64,000 nucleotides of DNA from positions 45,271,255 through 45,335,254 of the forward strand of contig CM055111.1 of the NCBI GenBank assembly GCA_029204225.1, written 5' to 3'. Under the pieces are notes generated by a model. That model saw only the letters and a program-made list of their open reading frames with translations. It searched no databases and was not told where the DNA came from. This stretch comes from Diphasiastrum complanatum. Taxonomy: Eukaryota; Streptophyta; Lycopodiopsida; Lycopodiales; Lycopodiaceae. Made by a program: the position numbers and the translations under genes. Of the stretch, positions 16,301 to 61,412 are shown piece by piece (position 1 is the first letter of the stretch; the number at the start of each line of letters is the position of its first letter).

Positions 16301-17359
16301 TCGGTTCTGATGTGTGGTTGAGTTTCATCAAGAAAAAAGTGATTAAATTCTTCATTCAAGTGAATTGTGAGAAAGACTATTGAATAGTCAACACTATATT
16401 TGCATACCAATGATGTTTGCTTCAGAAAAAACCATTTTTGAAATTTTTTCACTATACAACATTAACCTTATTAAGATCATTTCCATGGTGACATTGAAAA
16501 TACTGATCAAAATTATTCAACCATTCTTCCACATCAATGAAATCAGATTGACCATCAAGATCAAGAAATGCAAATCGCTTCTGGACTGGAACATCATTGT
16601 TTTCATTGCTTGGAGGTTAGGATGCAGCTACATTGTAGAAAATGAAGACTGATTCTCTTGATGACATAGGTACTAAACGATCGTGATCTTGATAACCCTC
16701 TAGTTAATCATCAATGTTGTAATGTCCAAAGCACTAAGAAGAACATCTATATCCTTAATGCTGATCAAGTCGGTTTTCACTATGACATGCATGTTGCTCG
16801 TCGTTGTTATTGTCTACCTATTGGCTTGACTAATCTTCATATCCATCATCCTCGTAATTAGATTGATCATCATCATAGTCTGGATGTGTATTCAATGCTT
16901 AAGCAGGTGATTGTGAGTTGTGAGCTCACCAATTGAAAATATGTTAAGATTTAGCATGTGACATGAGAAATTTTTTAGTTTAAAAAAAGCCCATAAGCCC
17001 TTTATCACTATAAATAGGGAGAGGAATAAGTTGTCAATGAAGTATTGATAGCAGCCCGTATTTTGCAATATTAACAAACATTAGCGTCGTGCATAGATGC
17101 ACTGCATTTCTGGAAACGCGTTCAGAAACGCATTTCTGAACCACGTTTCTGGTTTAGGGGAACGTTTCTAAGAAACCGTTTTTTTTTAAATTTGTTTTAT
17201 TGTGGGCAATATAGGTATCAAATTAAAGCTCTAATTAAGAGCAGTACATTTATAGAGGTTGTCAAATGTTTCACATACAGGGTGGTTCAGTTTAGATGCA
17301 TCAATTCCTACTAGATTCTATCGAGGATAAAAAATTAGACTGGCTTGTCATGTTACAGG

Positions 17360-17408
<49 letters not shown>

Positions 17409-20400
17409 GGCTGCTCCATCGCTGGCTCCAATCCCTGTCCTGGTCCGCCCTGCCCTTCTCTTCCAACGCTGCCACCATGGCTCCTCCTCTCTCGCGCTGC
17501 TGCTCGCAGGACTACCCCTACCCCCCCCCTCTGCTGTCACCTCACCCCCCTCGCTACTGCTGCTACCGCCACGTCAACCTCCCCCCCCCTCGGTACTGTT
17601 GCTGCTCCAGCCCCCCCCCATCGCTGCTGCTACTGCTGCCTCAGCCCCCACTACTGCTGCCACCTCAGCCCCCGCTGATGCTGCCATCTCAGCCCTCGCT
17701 GCCACCTTGTCTCTGCTGTCCAGAAATGGCAGCGCTGCCTGCTGATGCCGTGGCACCCCCCTCCACCTCATCATTATCCTCTTCTTCTTCTTCTTCTCTT
17801 ACTACTGCCCCTCCCTCTCCTTCATAGTCTGCCTCATCTGCACCGTCTTCACATCCACACATAGCTCATCCATCTACAGCATCCATTCTCTACACTCCCT
17901 CCAAATCAACTGAACTCTTTTCCTCTTGGGAAGCTGACCAGATGAGAGCATATTTCCAGTTCTTGAAGCAAGAACTTTCACAGCTGAAAGGAGTAGTGGT
18001 CTCCTTACTAAAGGAGAAGAACTTGTTGCAGTCCAACGTCGTTTCATTGGAGCAAGTGATTAACACCAAGCAGGTTGCAGCCTCGGAATCAACCACCACC
18101 ATGATACGGGAACTTGAGAGTAAAATTGAGCAGCATAAAGACTCACGGGCAGCAGTCTTGAAGAAAGGCACCAAGCCTAGCGCCCCCATCTCTTCAGTCA
18201 TCTCAGCCACCATTTCGGAAAGGCGGTCAAGGGAGCAAAAGGCCCATAACATCAGGGTTCGTGGGATACCCGGCACATAGAACGCCATTGCCGAAGCTAC
18301 GAGATTTCTCGAGACCACTCTAGGACACGTGACAAATGGGCTAGATACAGCTTGGAGGACCACCAAAGATGCAACTACACTCATTATCCGTTTCACTTCC
18401 CTAGAGAGTCGCCGAGATGCTTTGCGGTGCAAAGCTAAGCTGCGTGGCACCACTATCTATATGGACGACGACCTCACATTTATTCAAAAATAGGAGAGGC
18501 GTAAGGAATTTCAGGCAGCCCGTGAGTCTGGCAGTTGAGTCATTTACCGAGATGGACGAGTGCGCTTTCTTGATAGCACTCCTAGCAGATCCCAATGCTG
18601 GGGATTTGGGGTGCCCGGGGTTGGGAGCACCCCGGGGCCCCATCCACACCACCTTCGGATTGGAGTGTGGAACTGTGCTGGCATACATTCATCTTCTACG
18701 GCAAGGGACCTTGCTGATTTTATCACAGGCAGAGATATACTATTCTTCATGGAGACACACGAGAGCCCGGAGCGAGGACTTCCCTCTTTTCCTAGATACA
18801 GATGGGACTCAGTATTCCGACGAGAGACTAGACCTGCCACTGGACGAGGTTCGAGTGGGGTCACCTACTTGTACAGAGAGACTCTCCATCCGAGTATTGA
18901 CTTCATCCGACATGATGAGTAGGCCCACTACATATGGATTTGCATCGTGGGTCAGGATATTGGTTTGGATAGAGATCTTTTTATTGCAGCATGTTACTTT
19001 TTACCAGAGTCCTCGTCTTTTGCTGAGGGTATTGGATCTCCATATCAGGACCTCGCACCAGATATTATCAGATTCTCAGAGCGGGGGCATATTCTCCTCA
19101 CAGGGAATTTTAATGCCAGGACATCTTCGAGACAGACAAAGTTCTTCGACACCACTGATCAACTGCATGTTCGTGCCCTCGATAGTGACATGCTTGGAGT
19201 TACCAGGACCTCCGCGGACAGTTTGGGACCTACTACTTCAGATGGTGAGCATTTATTGCAGTTTGGAGAGGCACATGAGCTAGCCATTTATAATGGCTTA
19301 CCCCACTGGCCAAATTCAAACAATTATACATGCCATCCTCACAGTGGAGGACATAGTGTCGTTGACTATCTCATGGGGTCACCATCCTTTGTACCCATAG
19401 TCTCCCCATAGTCTCTGACTTCCACGTTCCCCCACCACCCTTTCTGATCACTCATTTCTCTCCTTCGATATCGGCCACCTTCCACCCACTCATTCATCTA
19501 CACTACCCATGCTTACTCGAGCACCCACGTACACAATTGATCCCATTTACATGCCACTATATCGACAGTCCTTGGCTTCACTTTTACACTCCTTTCCTCA
19601 TGACAGTCCAGTCGACACCCAGGCTGCTTTTCTCACCACCTCTCTCCACTCAGCCGCATCACTAACCCTCCCCACAAAACCCCATCCCAAAAAGACTCGA
19701 CGCACACCCTCCATGGTACGATACCGAATGTCGTTCTCTCCATCAGTCAGTAACCTATTCACGTATCCATGCCCCACATTTGCTTCGATCTTTCCGACGC
19801 TCCGACCATCGTGTTCTCCGCCGTAAGAAGCGTTCATCAACCTTCTTTTCAGTTCTTCTTAGGGCGCTTTTTGGCGTGAGTTCATTCCTCGCTCTCCACC
19901 ACCTCCCTGGAGGACCTCCGCATCTGGACTGATTATGCTACTAGCTTGTATACCGTCCCTACTGACTCACCTATCTCTATATCTCCACGACCATCTGAGT
20001 TCTCCTTCTTCACATCTGATATGGTACTTGCAGCCATTAAGAAGATCAAGTCCCACATGCCAGAGATATTGAAGACCTTGAGTCTGAACTCCTTTCCCAT
20101 GCCTCCGACTTACTCACTCCCACTATCGCCACCCTTCTTAATTCCGCAGTTGTTTCCAGTTTCCCATCATCTTGGTGCACTAACATTATCCACGCCATCC
20201 ATAAGAATGGTAACCCCATGATTCCGAGTAACTACCGCACCATCATAATTGGGTATGTCCTGGCGAAACTATATGGCACTATGCTACAGTCTGTTGTGAC
20301 ATGCCATGGGTCAGGCAGGTTTTCGAGCCCATTATTCTACTGCAGATCACATCTTCACATTGCGAGCCTTGATTGAGGAGGCTAAGCAAAGGAGAGAGAG

Positions 20401-21984
20401 GGTTTACTGTTGTTTTGTGGACTTCTGGAAAGCCTTTGATTCTATTCCTCGCTCATTGCTCATCCAGAGACTCCGAGACCTCGGCTTCTCCACCGACATC
20501 GTTCTTGCTGTGATGGCACTTTATGAGCGTGTCCTGGGATGTTTTTGGCATAGTAGTGGCATATCCAAGCACATTTGGAGCACCATTGGGGTGAAGCAGG
20601 GTTGTTCCCTCTAACCAGTCCTCTTTGGCTTGTATATTGATGAGTTGGAGAGAGTCATTACACAGTGTGGTGGTGCTGGTTGCAAGCTTGGGGACATCTT
20701 GATTGCTATCCTCCTTTATGTCGATGATGTTGTATTAGTCTCACCGACCAGAGAGGGTCTACAGCGACAGTTGGATTGCTTACATGAGTTTTGCACCAGA
20801 TGGGGCCTAGGGGTGAACATTGGGAAGACCAGGGTTATGGTCTTCAGCACTTCTCGAGCATTCACGCAGCGACAGGAGCTTACTTTGGGCGGACAGGTTC
20901 CAGAGGTGGTCCCTTCCTACACATACCTGGAGATCCTTTTCTCAGGTCCTACTTTTAGCATGAGACAGGCCGTTACCACCCGACTGGGGAAGGGACATGC
21001 CTCCCTTGTTCAGCTAGAGCGATTTTGTTTCCGGAAGTCCATCCAGGATGCTCACAATAAGTGTCGCCTCTTTGATACCATTGTCACCCCCACGGCTTTA
21101 TATGCGGCAGAGGCATGGTGTACAGGTCTCCCCTCTTCACACTGAGCCAGTCTTTCACGATTACAAACCACCATGCTAACTTGGTTGATTCGAGCGAAGC
21201 CTTCTGTTCCACATGAGATTCTCCTGGTCGAGTTCGCAGTTCCACCGATACAAATCGAGGCAGCTCTTCAGCTCATTACCTATATACAAAGGATACAGGT
21301 GTTACCAAATATAGACAGACAATTCATACAGGTTGCACTATCCTCCTCACAGCGTCTTCATGCTCAGGGCTACAGATTATCATGGTTCTCTCAAGCATCT
21401 CACCTCCTACTTGAGTCATTTGGTATCTCCATCACAGAGCTTCGCCTCAGATTTACACTAGGACAGCTAAGGGTGTCTTCTCATCAGCTAGCTATCGAGA
21501 CTGGGAGATTCCATGGTATTCCTAGAGAGGAGCAGATTTCCCAGTTATGCTCTATAGGTGAGGTGGAGTCTGAGGAGCACTTTATCTTTAGATGCCCTGT
21601 ATACTATGAGATCAAAGGGCGATATCATTGCCTGTTTCGAGACATGCCTACCACTCTACGCTCTCTCGTAACCTATGAGGACCCACGATCAGTCGCTCTG
21701 ATGGTACGTGAGATGTTCATACTACGGAGAGATTTATACGGGACACCCCAGCAGTTCACCTCACAGCCATTGATTAGCAACACAATCTTGACATCTTGAC
21801 ATAGATACATATGATTATTATGCACACACACTGTCGCACACATGTCTATTTTAGTTTGTACTAGATGTTTTTCTTTATTGCAGTTTTGGAGACGTTTTAT
21901 ACGCTACCAAGATTACCACATACTTGACATGTACTTCATCAGTCTTATATGCCTTTTGGCATGGAAAAGACATTAATAAAGCTT

Positions 21985-22055
<71 letters not shown>

Positions 22056-23280
22056 TCTCTGATCTCCCACGGATCTCTAGCCGGCTCCAATGTGGCGCTC
22101 CACCTGCGGACCTTTCTCCACCAACGGACCTGCTCCATCGCTGCCCATCTGCGGACCTCCTCCATCGCTGCCCAATGTGCGGACCTTTTTCCACCTGCAG
22201 ATCTGCTCCATCGCTGCCCAGGGCCCTGCTTCTGCAAGTTATCTCTGTAGGTCTGAGCGACCTCCTCCATCGCAATAAGATCCACCTTCCCCTTCTCCTT
22301 CTATGCTTGTTGCGGTTCCTATCTCCCCATCAAATCCTATTCTTGCCAATAGTAAAACTACTGTAGCTATTCCCTTGACTCCAAACACTCCAAAAGCACC
22401 TATTTCTTTTCCTTCATATGCCTTGGTCAATCTTCTTTGGACTGATCAACTCCGTCTATTTGAATACCTTAACGATCACAGAGAGAAACTTGCTTCTCAT
22501 GATTCTCTGCTTCTAGTTGTGCAATCGCATCTTCAAAAGTTGGATACTTCCATTCAAGAACTCAAGAACGAAGTTGCAGTTATAAAAAGCGAAGCTTCTT
22601 CCCAAATCGCTACTTCAGCTCAAATCCAACAGCTCGAAAGTCAGGTGGAACAGCACCATACGACTGTCCAATCATGGGCACATGTACTTAAAGGTTCGTC
22701 TACAGTTATCTCTCCACCTTCGCCTTCACCTTCCGTTATCTCAGCCAAGTTCACTGTGAGCCGTCTGCGAGAGCATAAAGCTCTCAATGTTCGTGTTAGA
22801 GGTATTCCGAACTCCCAAAATGTTGTTGAAGAAGCTGAGACGTTTTTGGAAGGAAATCTTCAACACCATAGCAAAGGTATGGAAACTGCCTGGCGACCTA
22901 AGAAGGACCTAGATACTCTTGTCATCCACTTCACATCAGTGTCTCACCGGCGTGAAGTTCTAGGGAAGAGATTCAAATTGCGGGATACCAAACTCTACTT
23001 GGACGAAGATCTTACCTTCATCCAAGTTCAAGAATGTAAGAAGGCAAGACAAGAAGCGCTATCAACTGGCAAACGGCTTATCTATCGTGATGGTATTATT
23101 ACACTGGTAGATCAGAAGCTTGTAGTTAATGAGAAGAATTCTGAGATAGAGAATGTCCAGTTGAACACGTAGTTAGTTAGTTTTTGTTATTTTGCTTTGA
23201 CGGCACTGATCCGTCTTGTTTCCAACTTATCTGATGTACTTGTTCGTCTTATATGCCTTTTGGCATGGTAAAGACGTTAA

Positions 23281-23349
<69 letters not shown>

Positions 23350-26300
23350 TGAATAAATGTTGAATGTTTGTGATCTTCAACATTGTATCATATTGAATGA
23401 TTGATCTTGCATGTAGTAGGATTTTTCTAGATTTTGTAGATGATTAGAAATATGTTTTTTTAGAAACAAGAGGGAGAGGACCACATTGTGCTTTGTGAGT
23501 TCTTGTGTGATTTTTAGTGTGTGCAATGTGCAGAGAAAATATTCTTTGTGTGTATTGAAGGTTGTTGCCATTGTCACATAAACCACCCCACATTTGTGAA
23601 GGTTTATCAAGTCACTTCAGCATTGGACTTTGCTAGAAAAGATAATTTTTTGTTCTTAGTTTGAAGAACCTATTTTAAAGCCTTAAAGTTCAGAATTTTT
23701 GTTTTTGTGTTTATTAGATGGAGATAGCACATGATTTTAGGCTTTAGCTTTGGTAGTGTGAAAGCACAATCAAGCATAGATTACAAATGATGAGAAGCTC
23801 ATGTGAACCAATTATGTTTAATTGATGGTTGGAGAAGTGTTGTTGCACAAGTAAACACCAATTGTTGTCCTGTATGTAGGTATGATGACTGGTAGCATAC
23901 ATATATGTGCATAGAAATATAGTTGCCCAGAAACGCTTCTCAATGTTTCTGGGAACATTTTTGCCCAGAAACACGTTTTTGGGCAACTATGGTGCGGTGC
24001 ATGGGCATAGCTTGTAAGTGAATCAAGACTTGAAAACTTTTTTAGAAGTTTGAATCAACAAGCTCCTGTCAAACGATTTAAGAAAGTAGTCAAAAGAAGT
24101 CAAAAGCTTGAAATTTTTTTTGGAAAAAGCTGTGCAAATTATGCAAATTTTTGAAATCCTCCAAAGAAAATGCTAACACATTCAAATCCCAAAACAATGG
24201 AATGCATTTAGAGGATTTGAAAGCAAAAGACTCAAGACTTGCTGTCACTACAGGATCGTCAAGCCCAACTCCAATGAATCCACCATACTTTCACTACGAC
24301 CAAAACATCATAAACTTCACTATATAGTTTAAACAAGTATAGAAGAATGATGATATCCAAAACTAAGCAACTTAATCTAAGGTAAGCTGATCCAAACTAT
24401 GCTAGTCTAAGAACTAATCTCTGATCCATCAAACATCGCTAATGACACTCACGAGCCTATTCACGGCCAATTTGGCCCTATAGCCTGACCAAACCAGGGC
24501 TTCAAGTCAACACTTTAAAATTTGGGAGCAACAAATGCACTTCAATTTATACATATCCTCAAATAAAAAGTAAGAAGCTATGACTCAAAAATACCCAAAC
24601 TTAACAGATTCACATCAACGGCCATAACACGGTTGTCTGCTCTAAAGCATGTCTGGAAACACCAGAATTTCAAAACGACGATTTTTCAAAAAAAATTTAC
24701 CAATCCAAAGCATCCCAAGACATCAATGTGATGCAATTTTTGAAATTGATAATTGGTTTGTTAGGATTGCTTCAAGTTGGCACCTTGTCTTGGAGCTACA
24801 AATGCACTCTAATATCCCAATTTATGATGTGTGATTTGTAGGGCTTACAATACTTTTGCATCTACAATCATGCCTCGGGGCACAAGCAAACTATGGCAAG
24901 AGGTCAAAGTTCTAGACACCATGGATGGTTGCTATGGTAGCTTGGTTGCATGTCATTGGCAATGTGTATATTATGGAAACAAGTTTTTGAGCACTCTCAT
25001 TGGGCTTGCAACAACGTGCTATTGAAACACACAAGACGGATGCAAAATAATTATCTTATTTAATATTGACCTCTTTCCAAAGTACAATGTTGAAAACCCT
25101 AAGAGAGCAATGATCAGCTAAACCCTGACACGTCCTAAGCTAACACATGGCACACGGAACTCAACCACCAACAATTGCCAGTTGCCAAAACTCAACACTG
25201 ACCATCACCATTGTCACTCATGTAGTGATAGACTAAGTGTCCCACAAAGCATATGACAAGTCAACTACTACATTTGAAGATGCAAGCCCAATCTCGTCTA
25301 AAGGAGACCCGATACCCCTAGGCCAATTACAAGCATGTCACTTCAAGCTAGTGAACTCGCTATGTGCATCCATGTATAAACCACCACAAGTCGATGACCT
25401 TAGCCATTTTTTCTTCAATTTCACATCTATGAATTATCCATGTGGCTACTGGCATGATACATCATCACCGATCGAATTTTGAAGTTTTAAGTGACCAAAC
25501 ATCCATCACACATCGATAAGTAGTAACTTTTAAGCAGTAAGTTCACTGGATAAACATTGGAGTAGAAATGTATGTGGTGGTCGATGAATAATGTATGAGA
25601 TGTCATTTGTAGTCGTTGTTAATGATTTAGTAGTTGAGAAAAGAAAGGCTTAGGAGGAGGATCCTTAGTTCAAGAAAGTGGAGCAAGAGGTGAGCCATGG
25701 CCATGTAGAGCGTGAAGAGGAGAGCTCTAGGTTCTCTATTTCCACTTATCTTAAGTATATCATGGAGGATTGTTTGGTAAAGAGGAATGACAAGACTTGG
25801 AAAGAATAATATTTCATTTGTTTGATGATAGTGCTATTGTGCTAGTGTTGGTCGTCTTGGTGAAGTTGGGATGTATGAGTTGATCCTAGGCTTAACTGAT
25901 GTTTACCATTGTGCAAGACTTTGTTTCAAGCCCCAAGGTAATAAAGTTGAAAGAATTAGATTCCATGGATTGCAACACGCTACTTGTTTCAAAAGGGAGA
26001 TGGGAAAGTATTTTGATGCCCTCTACTACACACTTGCCAGGACGTTGCAGCAACATAATGCCATAATAGTTGTGGTTGATAGACTCACAAAAGTTTTTGG
26101 ACGAAACGGGTTACCTTCATCGATAGTGTTCAATAGAGATTCATGCTTTACTTGGTGGCTTTTGGATTGCTATGTTTGATAGGTTAGAAGTGCAATTGGG
26201 ATTAAATTGTGTTGATCATCTTAAACTGAATGGACAAATTGAGAGAGTTAATCACACTTTAGAGATATGTTGAGTTTGTATTAAGTGTTAAGCACCTACA

Positions 26301-29300
26301 ATGGAAGCTGTACTTGCCATTGTGGGAGCTTACATGTAGTTATAAAAAGAATTTATTTTGCAAAAATAAGTTCTTCCAAGCTTGATTATGGTTCTATCCC
26401 AAATGGTGTTGCTACGGTAGGTATGCCTCAAAATTTTCCTAGTGTTGTTGAATCTATAACTCAAACAGAGGGTCCGCCACAGGCCTTCTTTACGAGTTTA
26501 TCTACTTTCTTTCATTTCCATTTTACGAATTCAGTTACGACTCTCAGGCTTAAAATTTGAAGTTTGAACCTCGATCAATGACATTTAGTTCTCAATTTGC
26601 AGGATTCAAGAGGTAAAGGCCAAGTGGGAGATTAGATGGAGCTGGTTTCATAGGCCTTCACATGCAGTTGCCCATGTGTTGCATCCTCTATGGAAGAAAT
26701 CTGATCTTGAGCAATTCCATGACCATGAGCTTGAGAATGGGGGCTGAATGCCTCCAGAGGGTCCTACCAGATGTTGCGAAGCAAGAGGTCGACGATGATG
26801 AACTCATGATTTTTTGAAGAAACGACCTAACTCATGAATTTCGAGGGCCGTGACACAAGATAGAGAGTAGGCCACTTGAGGCCAGTGTCTTGGTGGGACA
26901 ACTACAGATGGTGCACCCCTAGGCTACAACCCATAACATTAAGATTCCTCTAACAAGATTGTACCTCAACAACTTGTGATAGGAATTGGAGCATATTCTC
27001 CCTCATACACACGAAGAAGAGAAATAGGCTCTCCAAAGACCAGTTAGAAAGGCTAGTGTATGTGCATTAAAACCTATGCCTTTTACAAAAGGTGAGGGAG
27101 GTTAAAGAACCCATGCAAGTAATCGTTTGAACTTTCAACTTTTAGCTTTGTATTTGAGGTTTGAGCTTGAACTACTTGAACTTGAACTTGAGTGCTTAGT
27201 GTTGAAACTTGTCATTTGAATCTTGATACTTGAAAGTTGACCAGTCTAAGATGTATGAACCATTTGTAATTTGTGAATTTGTGTGACATGTTACGAGTGA
27301 CAAGTGAGGAGTCATGACTCATGGACATCTTAAATTGTTTAAACTTTAGGTAAACCCTGATGAGATGGACATCGCCAAGGTTTTTGATTTACCTCCCAGG
27401 TCACAGGAGGAGGAGGATATATATACCATCTTGCATCGTGAGTTTGTTGCACGATAAGGTAGCCTTGAGCCTTGCAAATTGCTTGAATCTTGAATCTTGA
27501 TAAAACATAATTGAATCATTGATTGCTTGTAATTTCAATTAAGATTGTACTTACACTATGTATCCCTAGGTTACTTCTTGAGTCTTTAATATTATCTAGG
27601 GTTCTTTCTAATAGCTACAAATTTCTACTTTGCAGGACGTGACTTGATTTGCATCATCACAAGCTCAGGTTGCTTAGCAACATTTAGAGAGCAGGTTCAG
27701 TAGCTTTGTCGAGGAGATTGAGGAGAGCGAGGGGTCTTCGTCTTATGAGGCCTCAAAGGGTGGGGATGATGGTGATGATGATGAGCAGGAGGCTATGAGG
27801 CCACCCTCCTCTAGGAGGACTTGGAGGACATAGCTATAGATTGTAGTAACTAGAATCTAGGTTGTTCTTTCATCTACCTTATTATGATAGTTGACTCAAT
27901 CATGACTCACTCATTTTGATATCATATGTGACGTGCATTGTGTACATTTTGATACCAGCCATTTACTATATATATTATAGTTCATCGGTGACTGTTCGCT
28001 ACAATGCTATTTCATTTTGCTTTTCAATGTAAGTACTAAGTTAATACGAATGATGCCTACGTATCCTCAATGCATAGACCATTGCATACAACTCCTTTTC
28101 ATGAGTTGGATAATCCTTCTCAGGAAAGTTGAGCTTCTTGCTCTTGCAAGCTATAAATCCTCCCTCTTGCATCTAAACAACCCCCACAACAATATCGCCT
28201 GCATTTGTGTCAAAGTTAAAAGGTTTGAGAGTCAGTTCACAATCTTGAGAGTGACATGTTCAACCACATCTTTGCTTCAACTCACCTTAAACATCCGTCC
28301 ACTCTCCCAATTTATACTTTTCCGACATATATGTCATAGGCACCGCTATCTTGGAGTGACCCTTTACAAACATTTTGTTAGACCAATCAAAAGAAAGGCC
28401 TCAATGTTGTAACCATAGTTGCAACGAATCGCGATTCGCGAACCGCGATTCCAACAGCGAATCATGCAAACAAATAAAAATATTAAAAAAGAAAGTTTTT
28501 TTTTTTTTAAAATAGCTTATGGCTGAAAATTTTTTAGGGGAGCAATGGTCAAACCAGCGTTTTGCCTCCCATAAGTGCAGTAGATAGGGCACAAACAAAT
28601 AAAAGTCAGTAACTACTTGGTTGTTATGTGCTCTGGTTCTCAGTAATTGTTAATGCTACAGCCCAAACTATCAAGTCTATGGATGATGATCACTTTTGCA
28701 ATCATTTCATTGGAGATGTGAGTGCAATGTGCTTACAGTTGGGGGCATAAATATTGCGCCCTTCTCGGCACGCATTTGGACCCCATTTTTATCTACGGGA
28801 GGTGCACCCCTCCCTGCTACTGTCACCGGGGGGGGCAAAAAGCGAGATACAATTCTCTGTCTCCGTCCCACTGGGACCATCTGTGATCGTAACGAACAGG
28901 CTAGAGGTTAGTTTTGAATTTTATCCTTGACAGAACCCAACATGGATTAATGCACCTGAACTGGACCATCCTGTACCCGAAACATTCAGCAAACTACACA
29001 GTAATAATGCTCTTAATTAGAGCTTTCATCTGATACCCATATTGCCCAAAAAAAAATCCAAAAAAGAAAAAAACACAATTCTAAACAATTCTAGGAAAAT
29101 TCCGAATCGCGATTCTGAACCGCGATTCGGACCGCGATTCTGAATCGCAATGCAACTATGGTTGTAACATCATTGGCACAAGCCATGTGAAAATAGAAAC
29201 AACTTTCTTAGAATTTGGCCTTACTCCCTCAATTGATGATATGACCAAAATAATAAATCTCAGCTATTCACTTTTCTTAACCTTAGCAAATAGGAAAATT

Positions 29301-36140: not shown

Positions 36141-39100
36141 TGGGCCTCCTAGAGGATGAGTCCTCCCTTACATACATAGAAACTATTGAGATATCATCAC
36201 CAACTTGAGTCTGATGCCACATGGCATGCACACTTAAGCACTTGGACCCAAGTTGCACTTAGTTAGAAAGAGGGGTACAATGTTCCTATAGTTCAATTCC
36301 TCCATGACAAATGTACAACGTAAAATCATGTAAGAGCTTAGCCACTAGGGATAAATTAGCCATTATATTTCAACAATGAGCTTAGGTGGAGTAGATGCCA
36401 TGTCTGGAGGAACAATGCACTCATTTACGGTCACCTCTAGGGGCTATGTCTCTTGGAGACGACAAGCTATCCTTGAATCGGTTTTGCAAAACAGTGAACA
36501 CCATCTCACACAGTCACACAAAAAACATGGGTTATTCTTTCTTGTGAATGAGTGGCTAAGTGCTTTACTTGTGCTCACAGTCAGATGTTGAACGATTTTG
36601 TGAGATGTGAGTGGCAAGCTGTCATACCCACAACTGATCTCGGATTATTATCCTCTTAGGTCATTAGGCCTACCTTGACCCGAAATTTAATTACGATTAT
36701 GAGGGGTTTGGGGGCCTCATGTGTATATGGTCATAATTAATGGCTGGAGGCCTAAATTCAAGATGGTGGATTTTTATGGGTCTATAAGTGAGTCATAGGG
36801 GAACTGGATGACGTGGCCCAGTTAGGCTGTAGAGGTGTCCAGTGAGGTGTCACAAAGGCGCATGGGCCTTGGAGGGTATAGGTATGCCCATTGGGCTCTC
36901 ACTAGTGTATGCTTGATGTGATGTTAGTAGCTACATGCTGTTGGTATGACTGGTATGACTCCTCTATCCCTTGTGAGTGATGGTCCATAGCTTGGGGGCT
37001 AGATCCGTTCGATCTAGATTTGGTTGGGTTGGTTTGTCCACCATTTGATACCCTTGTGTTACTTTGTTGCGGCTTGCTTGGCTATTGTATCCTGGGTGAG
37101 GGACTTTATAGTGGTTTCAGAGCCAAAAATTTTGATAAAAATAATTCAATTGAAAAACTCTAAGGTTGAATAACGGACATATGCAATTTTTATATTGCCA
37201 ATTGCATTAAATTCAACCCGTCAGTAGAGTAATTCCAATTGAAACATCTTAATCAAATTTGTTCTTAATTGCATTAAATTCCCACTCATTCTTTCCCATT
37301 TCTAAATTTGTCACTCGAGGAATGTTAGGGCGAGACCTACAATCCTTTTAGTGACCGGGAAAATTAAGAAAAGGGTGAAGAAAAAACGTGAGTTGGAATT
37401 TGTTCTATGAAGCTGGAATTCGATGGAATTTCTGAAAGCTTTGATAGTACGGATCATAGTTGCACCTCCCATCCAGAAACGCGTTCAGAAATGTGGTCAG
37501 AAACGTGTTTTTGAATCACGTTTTTGGTTTGGGAGAGCGTTTCTAAGAAAGGCTTCTTTTTTTTTTGTGGGTAATATGGGTATCAAATTAAAGCTCTGAT
37601 CAAGGGCATTGCATCGGTATAGGTTGCCAGGTGTTTTTGTTACAGTTGGGCTGGTTACATCATGGTGTAGGTCAATTAAGGGCAATTTTAGGGCAAAAAA
37701 TATACATATTCTGGTTTTTTTTTGGCACGATTTTGGAATTAGAATCGTGTTTCTGGGAAAGGCGTTTATGGGAATGTCTTTGCCCAAAAACGCATTTCTG
37801 TGCAACTATGGTATGGATTAGTTGGACTCACATGTTATGAGTCATTTGTCACAACTAGAGATTTTGAAAATCTATATGAGACAAATTTATTCCAATGAAA
37901 TCAATCGATTCTTGCACGATTCGATTGGGAAGTGGACAGTCTTCTTGGAGGAAGAACTTGTGGTATGAGATAGGCAATTCCAAAAAGAAGATCTGAATCT
38001 AACTAGATCTGGTTGACCATAGTACGGTAGTAAATCTAGAATGATGCTAGATACTATTGGTCACAAGAGGGTATTTTGTCAAAAATTTGAGGTCATGACA
38101 CCTAATGGATATCTCAAATTTACAAAATTGGAAACCTTGAAAGCTATTTCTTTACTTTGAGATTATATTAGTGAACTTCTTAACATTAATTAATCCAATT
38201 TCATGTGATTTCTTGAATGGTAATTGTTATTACCCATCGACCTTGGACGATGTCACATGAATGGTTAATAAAATTTGTTTTCTAATATATGGTTATCCTT
38301 TCTAGGCTAATAAATAAATTCTTTTTTGATTATACGGGTCAATTCTCTAAAAGATAACAAAGAAAATGTTTAGATGAGTCAATTCAAGTGAATGTGTTGG
38401 AGCATTAGCTGTATTAAGTTATGTTGATGCAACACATATTTTGACTTTCAAGATTTTTCAAAGTTCTTCTTTAAAACTTCTCCTAGGCCATTTTGGACTG
38501 ATATGCACCTCTTGGAAACTGGTGCAGGATATTGTTGATATTACAAGAAATTTCTAAGGATTGTTGTAGATATCCAGTTAGAAAATGAAAGAGAAGGAAA
38601 ATCGAAAAACATACTTGTAATAGAAGAGTACTGATTACAAATCTGATCGATTTGTATCAGAACTAGGGTGTTCTATTGCAAGAAAAGGTTTGTTGAAAAC
38701 TATTCCTTGCGGTTGTGATTAGCTTGATCGAGTCGAAAACGGAGCAATTAATGGCGTGGTAAAATCCGGGAGTACGTAAGAGCGACGCAACCACTCCATC
38801 ACTTATAAATATTGTAGTTCTCATAAAGAAGTTTTGATGACTCTTAAGTTATTCTAGATTAAAACTTAAGAGAAATAGAATCTAGACGTATTTTGGATTG
38901 GATCCTAACTCTGGAAAGACACTTTGTGCCACGTCTAGAGTAAGGAAATTTTTAGGATTACAATTCTTATATAGGCATCGTAAAGTGAGTGATTAAAATC
39001 CGAGAGTTTCCAAGTGGAAAGGATTGTTTAGAGCCACTCATGTGTCTTCTGAGAATAGTGATTTTCATGTTCTCTTATTATTCAGTATAGAATAAAGATC

Positions 39101-60641: not shown

Positions 60642-60677
<36 letters not shown>

Positions 60678-61412
60678 GGTGCGAAAGTTGCCACATGGCA
60701 AGGCACATAGGCTTGCCACATGTAAAACCATGCAGGCTTGGGACTTACCACGTGGAAAGCCACGTAGGACTACCATAGGCTTGTGTAGTAAGCCACATAG
60801 GCATGTCATATGTCTGCTATCTACCAAGCCTGTCGGAGACTGTCATGTGGCAAGCCATGTAGGCCCATGACAAGTCATGCAAGCTTGGGGTTTTCCATGT
60901 GGCAAACCACATAGTTCTAACATAGGCTTGCGTGGCAAGCCAACCAGGCTCTGCCACGTAGGCCTGAGTGGACATACAGAGAGAGAGAGAGAGAGAGAGA
61001 AAAAAAAAAAAAAAAAAAATTGGAGCTCGAAAGTTGCCACATGGCAAGCCACATAGGCCTACCACGTGGAAAACCATGTAGGCTTGATACTGGCCATGTG
61101 GCAAGCCACGTAAGCCTACCATAGACTTGTGTGGCTTGCCACATGGCCTACCATAGGCTTGTGTAGTAGGCCACATAGACCTACTATCTACCAAGCCTAT
61201 CATAGGTTGTCACATGGCAAGCCACGTAGGCCTGCCACATGACAAATCATGCAAGCTTGGGGTTTGCCACATGGCAAGCCATGTAGGCTACCATAGGCTT
61301 GTGCGGCAAGCCAACCGAGCTCTGCCATGTAAGCCTGAGTGTACCCAGAGAGAGAGAGAGATAGAGAGGTGGGCTCAAAAGCTGACATGTGGCAAGCCAT
61401 GTAGGCCTACCA
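60601..61412. repeat. Higher-order minisatellite with GA tracts
   Basis: Units of about 335 and 370 bp start with (GA)n tracts at 60645, 60979 and 61348. A GTTGCCACATGGCAAGCC entry word recurs after the first two tracts (diverged to CTGACATGTGGCAAGCC after the third). Each is then filled with about 35-100 bp diverged subunits of the words CACATGGCAAGCCACGTAGG, AAACCATGCAGGCTTGGG and CTACCATAGGCTTGTG. The second GA tract is followed by an A20 run. A copia LTR begins within the third unit. Confidence 0.88.

Follow-up and report, generated by a model that had tools for sequence, protein, structure and literature searches.

A 64,000-nucleotide (nt) window of the genome of the lycophyte Diphasiastrum complanatum (contig CM055111.1) contains two related elements, E1 and E2, which raise the question of whether a plant long interspersed nuclear element (LINE) can be targeted to a dinucleotide microsatellite or makes such a repeat itself. 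Three pure TC tracts (17363-17406, 21985-22060, and 23285-23334) frame the pair, with E1 between the first and second tracts and E2 between the second and third. The elements lie head-to-tail, TC is on their sense strand in all three tracts, and neither E1 nor E2 has a poly(A) tail, which bears out the layout described in an earlier note made from the sequence alone. That note had offered target preference and a self-made 3' tail as the two possible origins. A gene in the window matches a D. complanatum protein at 100% across 96% of the query, in agreement with this host. We consider it likely that a large D. complanatum LINE family has (TC)n or other polypyrimidine DNA as its preferred insertion target, in one orientation and with older tails serving as landing pads. 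TC would be preferred rather than strictly required, and a short part of the junction would be self-made. The features of the locus are listed below (ORF, open reading frame; UTR, untranslated region; APE, apurinic/apyrimidinic endonuclease; RRM, RNA recognition motif).

17080..17362 (+), left part of the host repeat (DNA-transposon-like), ending in GTTACAGGAGG, which abuts the TC tract; outer limit set by eye
17363..17406 (+), (TC)n upstream of E1, which probably belongs to the host repeat
17403..21984 (+), E1, a dead LINE (leader, ORF1 remnant, ORF2 remnant, and 3' UTR)
17828..18490 (+), E1 ORF1 remnant, containing stops
18656..19408 (+), E1 APE-type endonuclease remnant (PF03372, 7.2e-5; PF14529, 2.3e-3; both below the Pfam cut-off)
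20300..21142 (+), E1 reverse transcriptase remnant (PF00078, 2.8e-7 and 2.5e-9)
21146..21796 (+), E1 ORF2 C-terminal part, with a C..H..C motif seen by eye and without a Pfam match
21942..21971 (+), E1 3' hairpin, GTCTT-A-TATGCC(TTTT)GGCATG-GAA-AAGAC
21983..22060 (+), CTTT-type units followed by (TC)n, the 3' tail of E1 and the 5' landing tract of E2
22061..23284 (+), E2, an ORF1-only element
22303..23172 (+), E2 ORF1, open, 289 amino acids (aa), modeled as a coiled coil, an RRM, and a C-terminal domain
23246..23275 (+), E2 3' hairpin, differing from that of E1 at 1 base in 30
23285..23334 (+), (TC)25 3' of E2, followed by (AC)n

A tag of 19 bases common to the 3' ends of E1 and E2 had two exact matches in the window when up to 3 mismatches were allowed (0.02 expected) and 4,559 exact matches (2,240 + 2,319) in the 1.74 Gb assembly, for which the reversed control gave 0. 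A longer word extending to AATAAAGC was found at 2,849 places (1,395 + 1,454; control, 0). Both counts represent 3' ends, not full elements. The set used for the 3' flanks comprised the first 65 places listed on contig C1 (genome loci are designated by L numbers), minus L049, L050, and L058, each of which had a 90-nt key identical to that of another place and likewise runs into TC; the remaining 62, together with E1 and E2, made 64 distinct copies. Under one rule, (TC)5+ followed the tag within 80 nt in 54 of the 64, and either (TC)5+ or a pyrimidine run of 12+ in 60, including six copies with a pyrimidine run and no (TC)5+. Only L009, L019, L028, and L068 had neither. The background frequency of (TC)5+ starting within 60 nt downstream was 0.42%, as estimated from 8 tracts in the window outside the elements, and would be slightly higher for 80 nt. 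Within the same 80 nt, (GA)5+ and A8+ each occurred in 0 of the 64 copies, so the poly(A) ends that the earlier note had named as a sign against targeting did not appear; (TTG)n or (TTGATG)n was not found in any of the 62 tails. Where the junction could be parsed (52/62), it read AATAAAG or similar, then 0-6 CTTT units, then a TC run of variable length.

The 5' ends were read in a set of 40 copies with a fixed reach of 1.3 kb upstream, the junctions being judged by eye. In 22 of them the reach was filled by the element or the 5' end was not attained, and L077 and L112 were unjudgeable, which left 16 readable ends. Five of the 16 began after (TC)5+ (L083, L085, L091, L110, and, with 12-14 nt in between, L106), against a background of 0.14% for (TC)5+ ending within 20 nt upstream, and two more began after the pyrimidine tail of an older copy (L096 and L102). 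Upstream of these seven starts, an older LINE 3' end was present in four (L083, L096, L102, and L110), the start of L085 sits inside a LINE 3' UTR, and the DNA preceding the starts of L091 and L106 had no visible LINE; in L091, the (TC)26 tract was preceded by 200 nt in which none was seen. A further candidate, L090, appears collinear across its TC tract and was removed from the count. Among 20 longer loci, eight truncated starts lay 0-20 nt after TC (L013/L014 at 7162, L016, L018, L022, L023, L024, and two in L026) and four had no TC (L009, L020, L022, and L023), with several others unjudged; at least two further LINE stretches start after TC (L019 and L056). The recent pair L114/L115, 96.7% identical over about 710 nt, follows the same pattern: L114 is truncated directly after (TC)33, and the leader of L115 follows (TC)39, which itself lies behind a different LINE-like 3' end. 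Several copies are located within the TC tail left by an older LINE, the arrangement that had been proposed for E2. At 1077-1157 of L106 (minus), the 12-nt word GCAACTGGTCTC flanks (TC)n on both sides, directly ahead of the truncated LINE, and this pair resembles a target duplication around the microsatellite itself.

At E1, the upstream tract can be compared with other copies of the surrounding repeat. The left part of this host repeat is approximately 75% identical to 37488-37636 (+) and 28919-29074 (-) of the window, and the word TTGTCNTGTTACAGGA, which adjoins the 5' tract of E1, occurs at 19 places in the genome (reversed control, 2). The site carries TC or a GT->TC microsatellite in 5 of 6 other places, for each of which 40 nt were read; in L009, TC at this site is followed by another LINE. 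Because other copies of the host repeat carry TC there, the TC upstream of E1 most likely belongs to the host repeat and predates E1, short of empty-site proof. Within the window, the DNA-transposon-like repeat is represented at 28919-29150 (-), at 37460-37815 (+), and at 17080-17362 and 23940-23995, and one copy has both E1 and E2 inside it; by eye, it has inverted ends of the type CATAGTTGC...GCAACTATG. Elsewhere in the window (60646-61400), there are CACATGGCAAGCCACATAGG-rich direct repeats with (AG)n tracts in between.

The two elements also share a 3' hairpin, GUCUU-A-UAUGCC(UUUU)GGCAUG-GAA-AAGAC, the folding of which was equalled by 4/200 shuffles for E1 and 0/200 for E2. Covariation was assessed in 13 divergent 3' ends, a small and related set that includes LINE-like ends in L014, L021, L096, and L115. 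Changes on both sides were found in three hairpin pairs, corresponding to 8 cells, and none of 500 shuffles attained the real values for the covariation score, the proportion of paired cells (90%), or the count of both-sided cells; shifting the hairpin partner reduced the paired cells to 34-59%. These results support, but do not prove, a partly covarying hairpin common to E1, E2, and more distant LINE-like ends, which fits a LINE that recognizes its own 3' end and an E2 that uses the same signal.

The observations that weigh against a TC preference are best taken together with the explanations that they favor. The most serious of these holds that (TC)n is a self-made 3' tail, either encoded or generated by reverse transcriptase slippage, in which case the sites would be unselected and upstream TC would be an older tail hit by chance. 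This would account for the junctions of AATAAAG(CTTT)n followed by TC and for the short (CTTT) tails at the non-TC sites L009 and L073; in L009, an insertion at AATTC, the tail consists of two CTTT-like units (GCTTTCTTTC) followed by host DNA. All six copies with five or more CTTT units had no more than 13 nt of TC immediately after them, compared with 20 of 46 with fewer units (10/62 unparsed), and the scarcity of TC behind long CTTT runs suggests a self-made CTTT adaptor, which is at odds with pure targeting. No TC was present at 9 of the 16 readable 5' ends (L080, L082, L087, L092, L094, L098, L107, L108, and L113), and seven of these nine copies still carry 3' TC. Some of the nine may represent later breaks (in L082 and L094, transposon-like DNA lies directly upstream, as judged by eye), and for the remainder a self-made TC tail and insertion at the edge of a tract are equally possible. 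Several 5' TC tracts are older LINE tails, which cannot separate a target from a self-made tail hit later, and no empty TC allele was seen. Genome-wide, (TC)6 within 8 nt before a near-3' word was found at two places only, both on one contig (control, 0). The sampled genome copies all came from contig C1, in list order, and were selected through an exact match to the 3' tag. Of the five measures of hairpin covariation, two were often matched by shuffles, namely both-sided pairs (105/500) and further pair types (381/500).

Four findings nevertheless speak against a wholly self-made tail: the 5/16 starts after (TC)5+ exceed chance, the (TC)26 of L091 lies behind DNA in which no LINE was seen, the TC of E1 appears native to its host repeat, and L016 combines a long 5' TC with a 3' tail of (CTTT)5 and little TC. 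We therefore regard this explanation as unlikely in its full form. Of the two origins proposed in the earlier note, target preference is supported in that TC or pyrimidine follows 60/64 3' ends, TC precedes a number of truncated copies, and native-looking TC precedes E1, but the prediction of TC on both sides is not universal, and a location in non-TC DNA, named as a sign against targeting, applies to part of the copies. The self-made tail is also supported in part, in that a short (CTTT)n at the junction looks self-made, even at the non-TC site of L009.

A second alternative is that the junction TC grew after insertion, through microsatellite growth or unequal exchange, and that the elements prefer just short pyrimidine motifs (TTTC or TTC, for example) and not microsatellites. 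It draws on the non-TC insertions at short motifs (AATTC in L009 and TTTTAA in L108/L068, the latter a clear case with no tail), on the six copies with pyrimidine runs but no (TC)5+, and on a comparison of L085 with L096, which likewise counts against preference: in L085 (858-899), a LINE-like 3' UTR holds (TC)21 plus a truncated LINE, and the related stretch of L096, 1035-1150 (minus), reads only TTTTCTTTTT, with no TC. Evidence against this alternative comes from the long 5' TC on the recent copies L114 and L115 and from the TC that other host-repeat copies carry, and we judge it improbable. The last alternative, that the 5' TC is part of a transcribed leader or promoter, agrees with recognized leaders that start right after TC (E1, E2, L012, L014, L018, and L115, several of them recognized by that very feature) but is scarcely credible, because TC also precedes copies truncated in ORF2 or the 3' UTR, at 0-20 nt (L013, L016, L018, L022, L023, L024, L026, L091, and L114), which removes the leader objection that the earlier note had raised.

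With insertion into preferred TC tracts as the favored reading, a cycle can be proposed as follows. The ORF2 machinery would bind the conserved 3' hairpin, seen here as sequence, of the element's RNA, and an APE-type endonuclease would nick the GA strand of a TC tract, as the fixed strand of the insertions implies. The GA 3' end would then prime reverse transcription at the pyrimidine 3' end of the RNA, and slippage may produce the short (CTTT)n adaptor observed in the copies. Early stops of complementary DNA synthesis could yield the 5'-truncated copies, whose observed junctions start right after the remaining TC. Since every copy would leave TC at its 3' end, the older tails of the E1/E2 family and of related families may become landing pads in turn, giving rise to head-to-tail strings, of which E1-E2 is an example. 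E2, which has the 3' end of E1, was probably mobilized by the ORF2 of full elements.

In profile searches, the reverse transcriptase of E1 matched PF00078 above the Pfam cut-off, and its endonuclease was just under the cut-off (23.1 of 24.5 bits for PF03372 and 18.2 of 27.4 for PF14529). The endonuclease of the L009 copy passed that for PF03372 (24.9 vs 24.5 bits) and had no match in the PDB. The family thus has both an endonuclease and a reverse transcriptase, and its copies across genome loci are 5'-truncated with a constant 3' end, as in LINEs. E1 itself is inactivated: its ORF2 frame contains 12 stops when read straight through, the open pieces are distributed over different frames, and stretches present in other copies are missing. 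Splicing was considered as the source of these internal gaps and rejected, as different copies have different junctions, some of them at short shared words; ordinary internal deletions are the likelier explanation. Among the 120 of 258 reverse transcriptase relatives listed, few were named; two with names are from a fern, Adiantum nelumboides (52% over 52% of the query region), and from Klebsormidium nitens (32% over 85%). Against solved structures in the PDB, the reverse transcriptase piece of L012 scored 77 bits with R2 and 48 bits with L1, and relative P0002 scored 89 and 67 bits, respectively, too few references to assign a clade. A zf-RVT or RNase H domain is typical of flowering-plant L1; at a threshold of E 0.01, neither was matched by the E1 and L012 pieces or by the relatives P0002, P0006, and P0067.

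E2 consists of a single open ORF1 and lacks ORF2. Its 3' end is 92% identical to that of E1 over 102 aligned nt, part of which is TC tract, and the ORF1 products share 50% identity across 133 aa. The description of the pair as two related LINEs needs one correction: E2 is an ORF1-only derivative and not a second full LINE. An AlphaFold2 model of E2 ORF1 (mean predicted local distance difference test score, 65; 5 sequences) contained a long coiled coil, an RRM, and a small C-terminal domain. The best Foldseek match of the model was the human L1 ORF1p trimer 2yko (E 1e-5; template modeling scores, 0.28/0.38), and all four matches under 0.001 were human L1 ORF1p. As modeled, E2 ORF1 has the L1-type ORF1 fold of coiled coil, RRM, and C-terminal domain. 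No sequence relatives of ORF1 were found in the protein database at E 0.001, and the ORF1 pieces had no Pfam match above the cut-off (below it were DUF724 for E2 ORF1 and Pullul_strch_C for an E1 piece). A further ORF1-only element, with TC at both sides, occupies 7048-8434 of L018, and at 1000-1321 of L078 an ORF1-like end stands directly ahead of the 3' UTR, as seen by eye only. The copies in L018 and L078 suggest a half-LINE family.

A broader reading, which we hold only tentatively, is that several lycophyte LINE families form a guild with a shared (TC)n target, each making the next one's landing site so that the elements create and extend their own targets, with a common covarying hairpin code and with ORF1-only parasites that exploit both this code and the target. 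LINE-like 3' ends of other kinds, followed by TC or CTTT/TC, were observed at L014 3829-4223, L021 8580-9003, L115 (minus) 1-117, and L096 (minus) 1161. They have related hairpins with different stems, and in L014, L021, and L115 a TAA/TTCTAA-like stretch separates the hairpin from TC. In addition, an approximately 330-bp repeat (85% identical) ends at a TC tract in L012 (1794-2125) and L016 (4877-5201), which does not clearly look like the end of a LINE and is perhaps another TC-associated repeat.

The long contigs of this lycophyte assembly and the thousands of 3' ends that carry the tag would make it testable how an APE-type LINE adopts TC repeats, and the family would also allow tests of the feedback between LINE tails and microsatellites and of the formation of head-to-tail strings. 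Some TC microsatellites here are LINE tails, which is relevant for marker design.

Searches of the open-access literature showed no LINE of a plant with a dinucleotide repeat as its target (closed journals or Repbase could hold one) and turned up only a satellite-targeted L1 lineage, in Cuscuta; a lycophyte LINE family with a TC preference is, as far as literature searches reach, new for plants. Microsatellite-targeted LINEs of animals were reportedly described by Kojima and Fujiwara in 2004, and the earlier note named Kibi and Koshi, of the Tx1 group in fish, as such elements. Target-specific LINEs of the Tx1 group have an APE-type endonuclease (PMC4640811). The Diphasiastrum family resembles the animal elements in its insertion into simple repeats and its APE-type endonuclease, and differs in its lycophyte host, in the copies located outside TC, in the self-made (CTTT)n adaptor, and in a reverse transcriptase that is not placed in Tx1. 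Among plants, the L1-CS LINEs of Cuscuta europaea are concentrated in a 389-bp satellite, with the sites TTCTA and TTTCAA (PMC8091179). Both are plant LINE lineages that favor one tandem repeat via insertion-site preference, the target being a satellite in Cuscuta and a dinucleotide repeat in Diphasiastrum. In flowering plants, L1 is almost always poly(A)-ended, RTE ends in (TTG)n or (TTGATG)n, and one monocot L1 lineage has a conserved 3' stem-loop (PMC3747384). The present family shares the endonuclease and reverse transcriptase of L1 and RTE and the 3' stem-loop of the monocot lineage, and departs from them in its CTTT/TC ends and the lack of a zf-RVT or RNase H match. The modeled E2 ORF1 has the domain order of LINE-1 ORF1p (coiled coil, RRM, and C-terminal domain), unlike which it has no above-cut-off Pfam match or sequence relative at E 0.001. 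HAL1-type half-LINEs are ORF1-only elements mobilized in trans. E2 is likewise ORF1-only, but instead of poly(A) it and its partner have a TC tail in common, along with a specific 3' hairpin.

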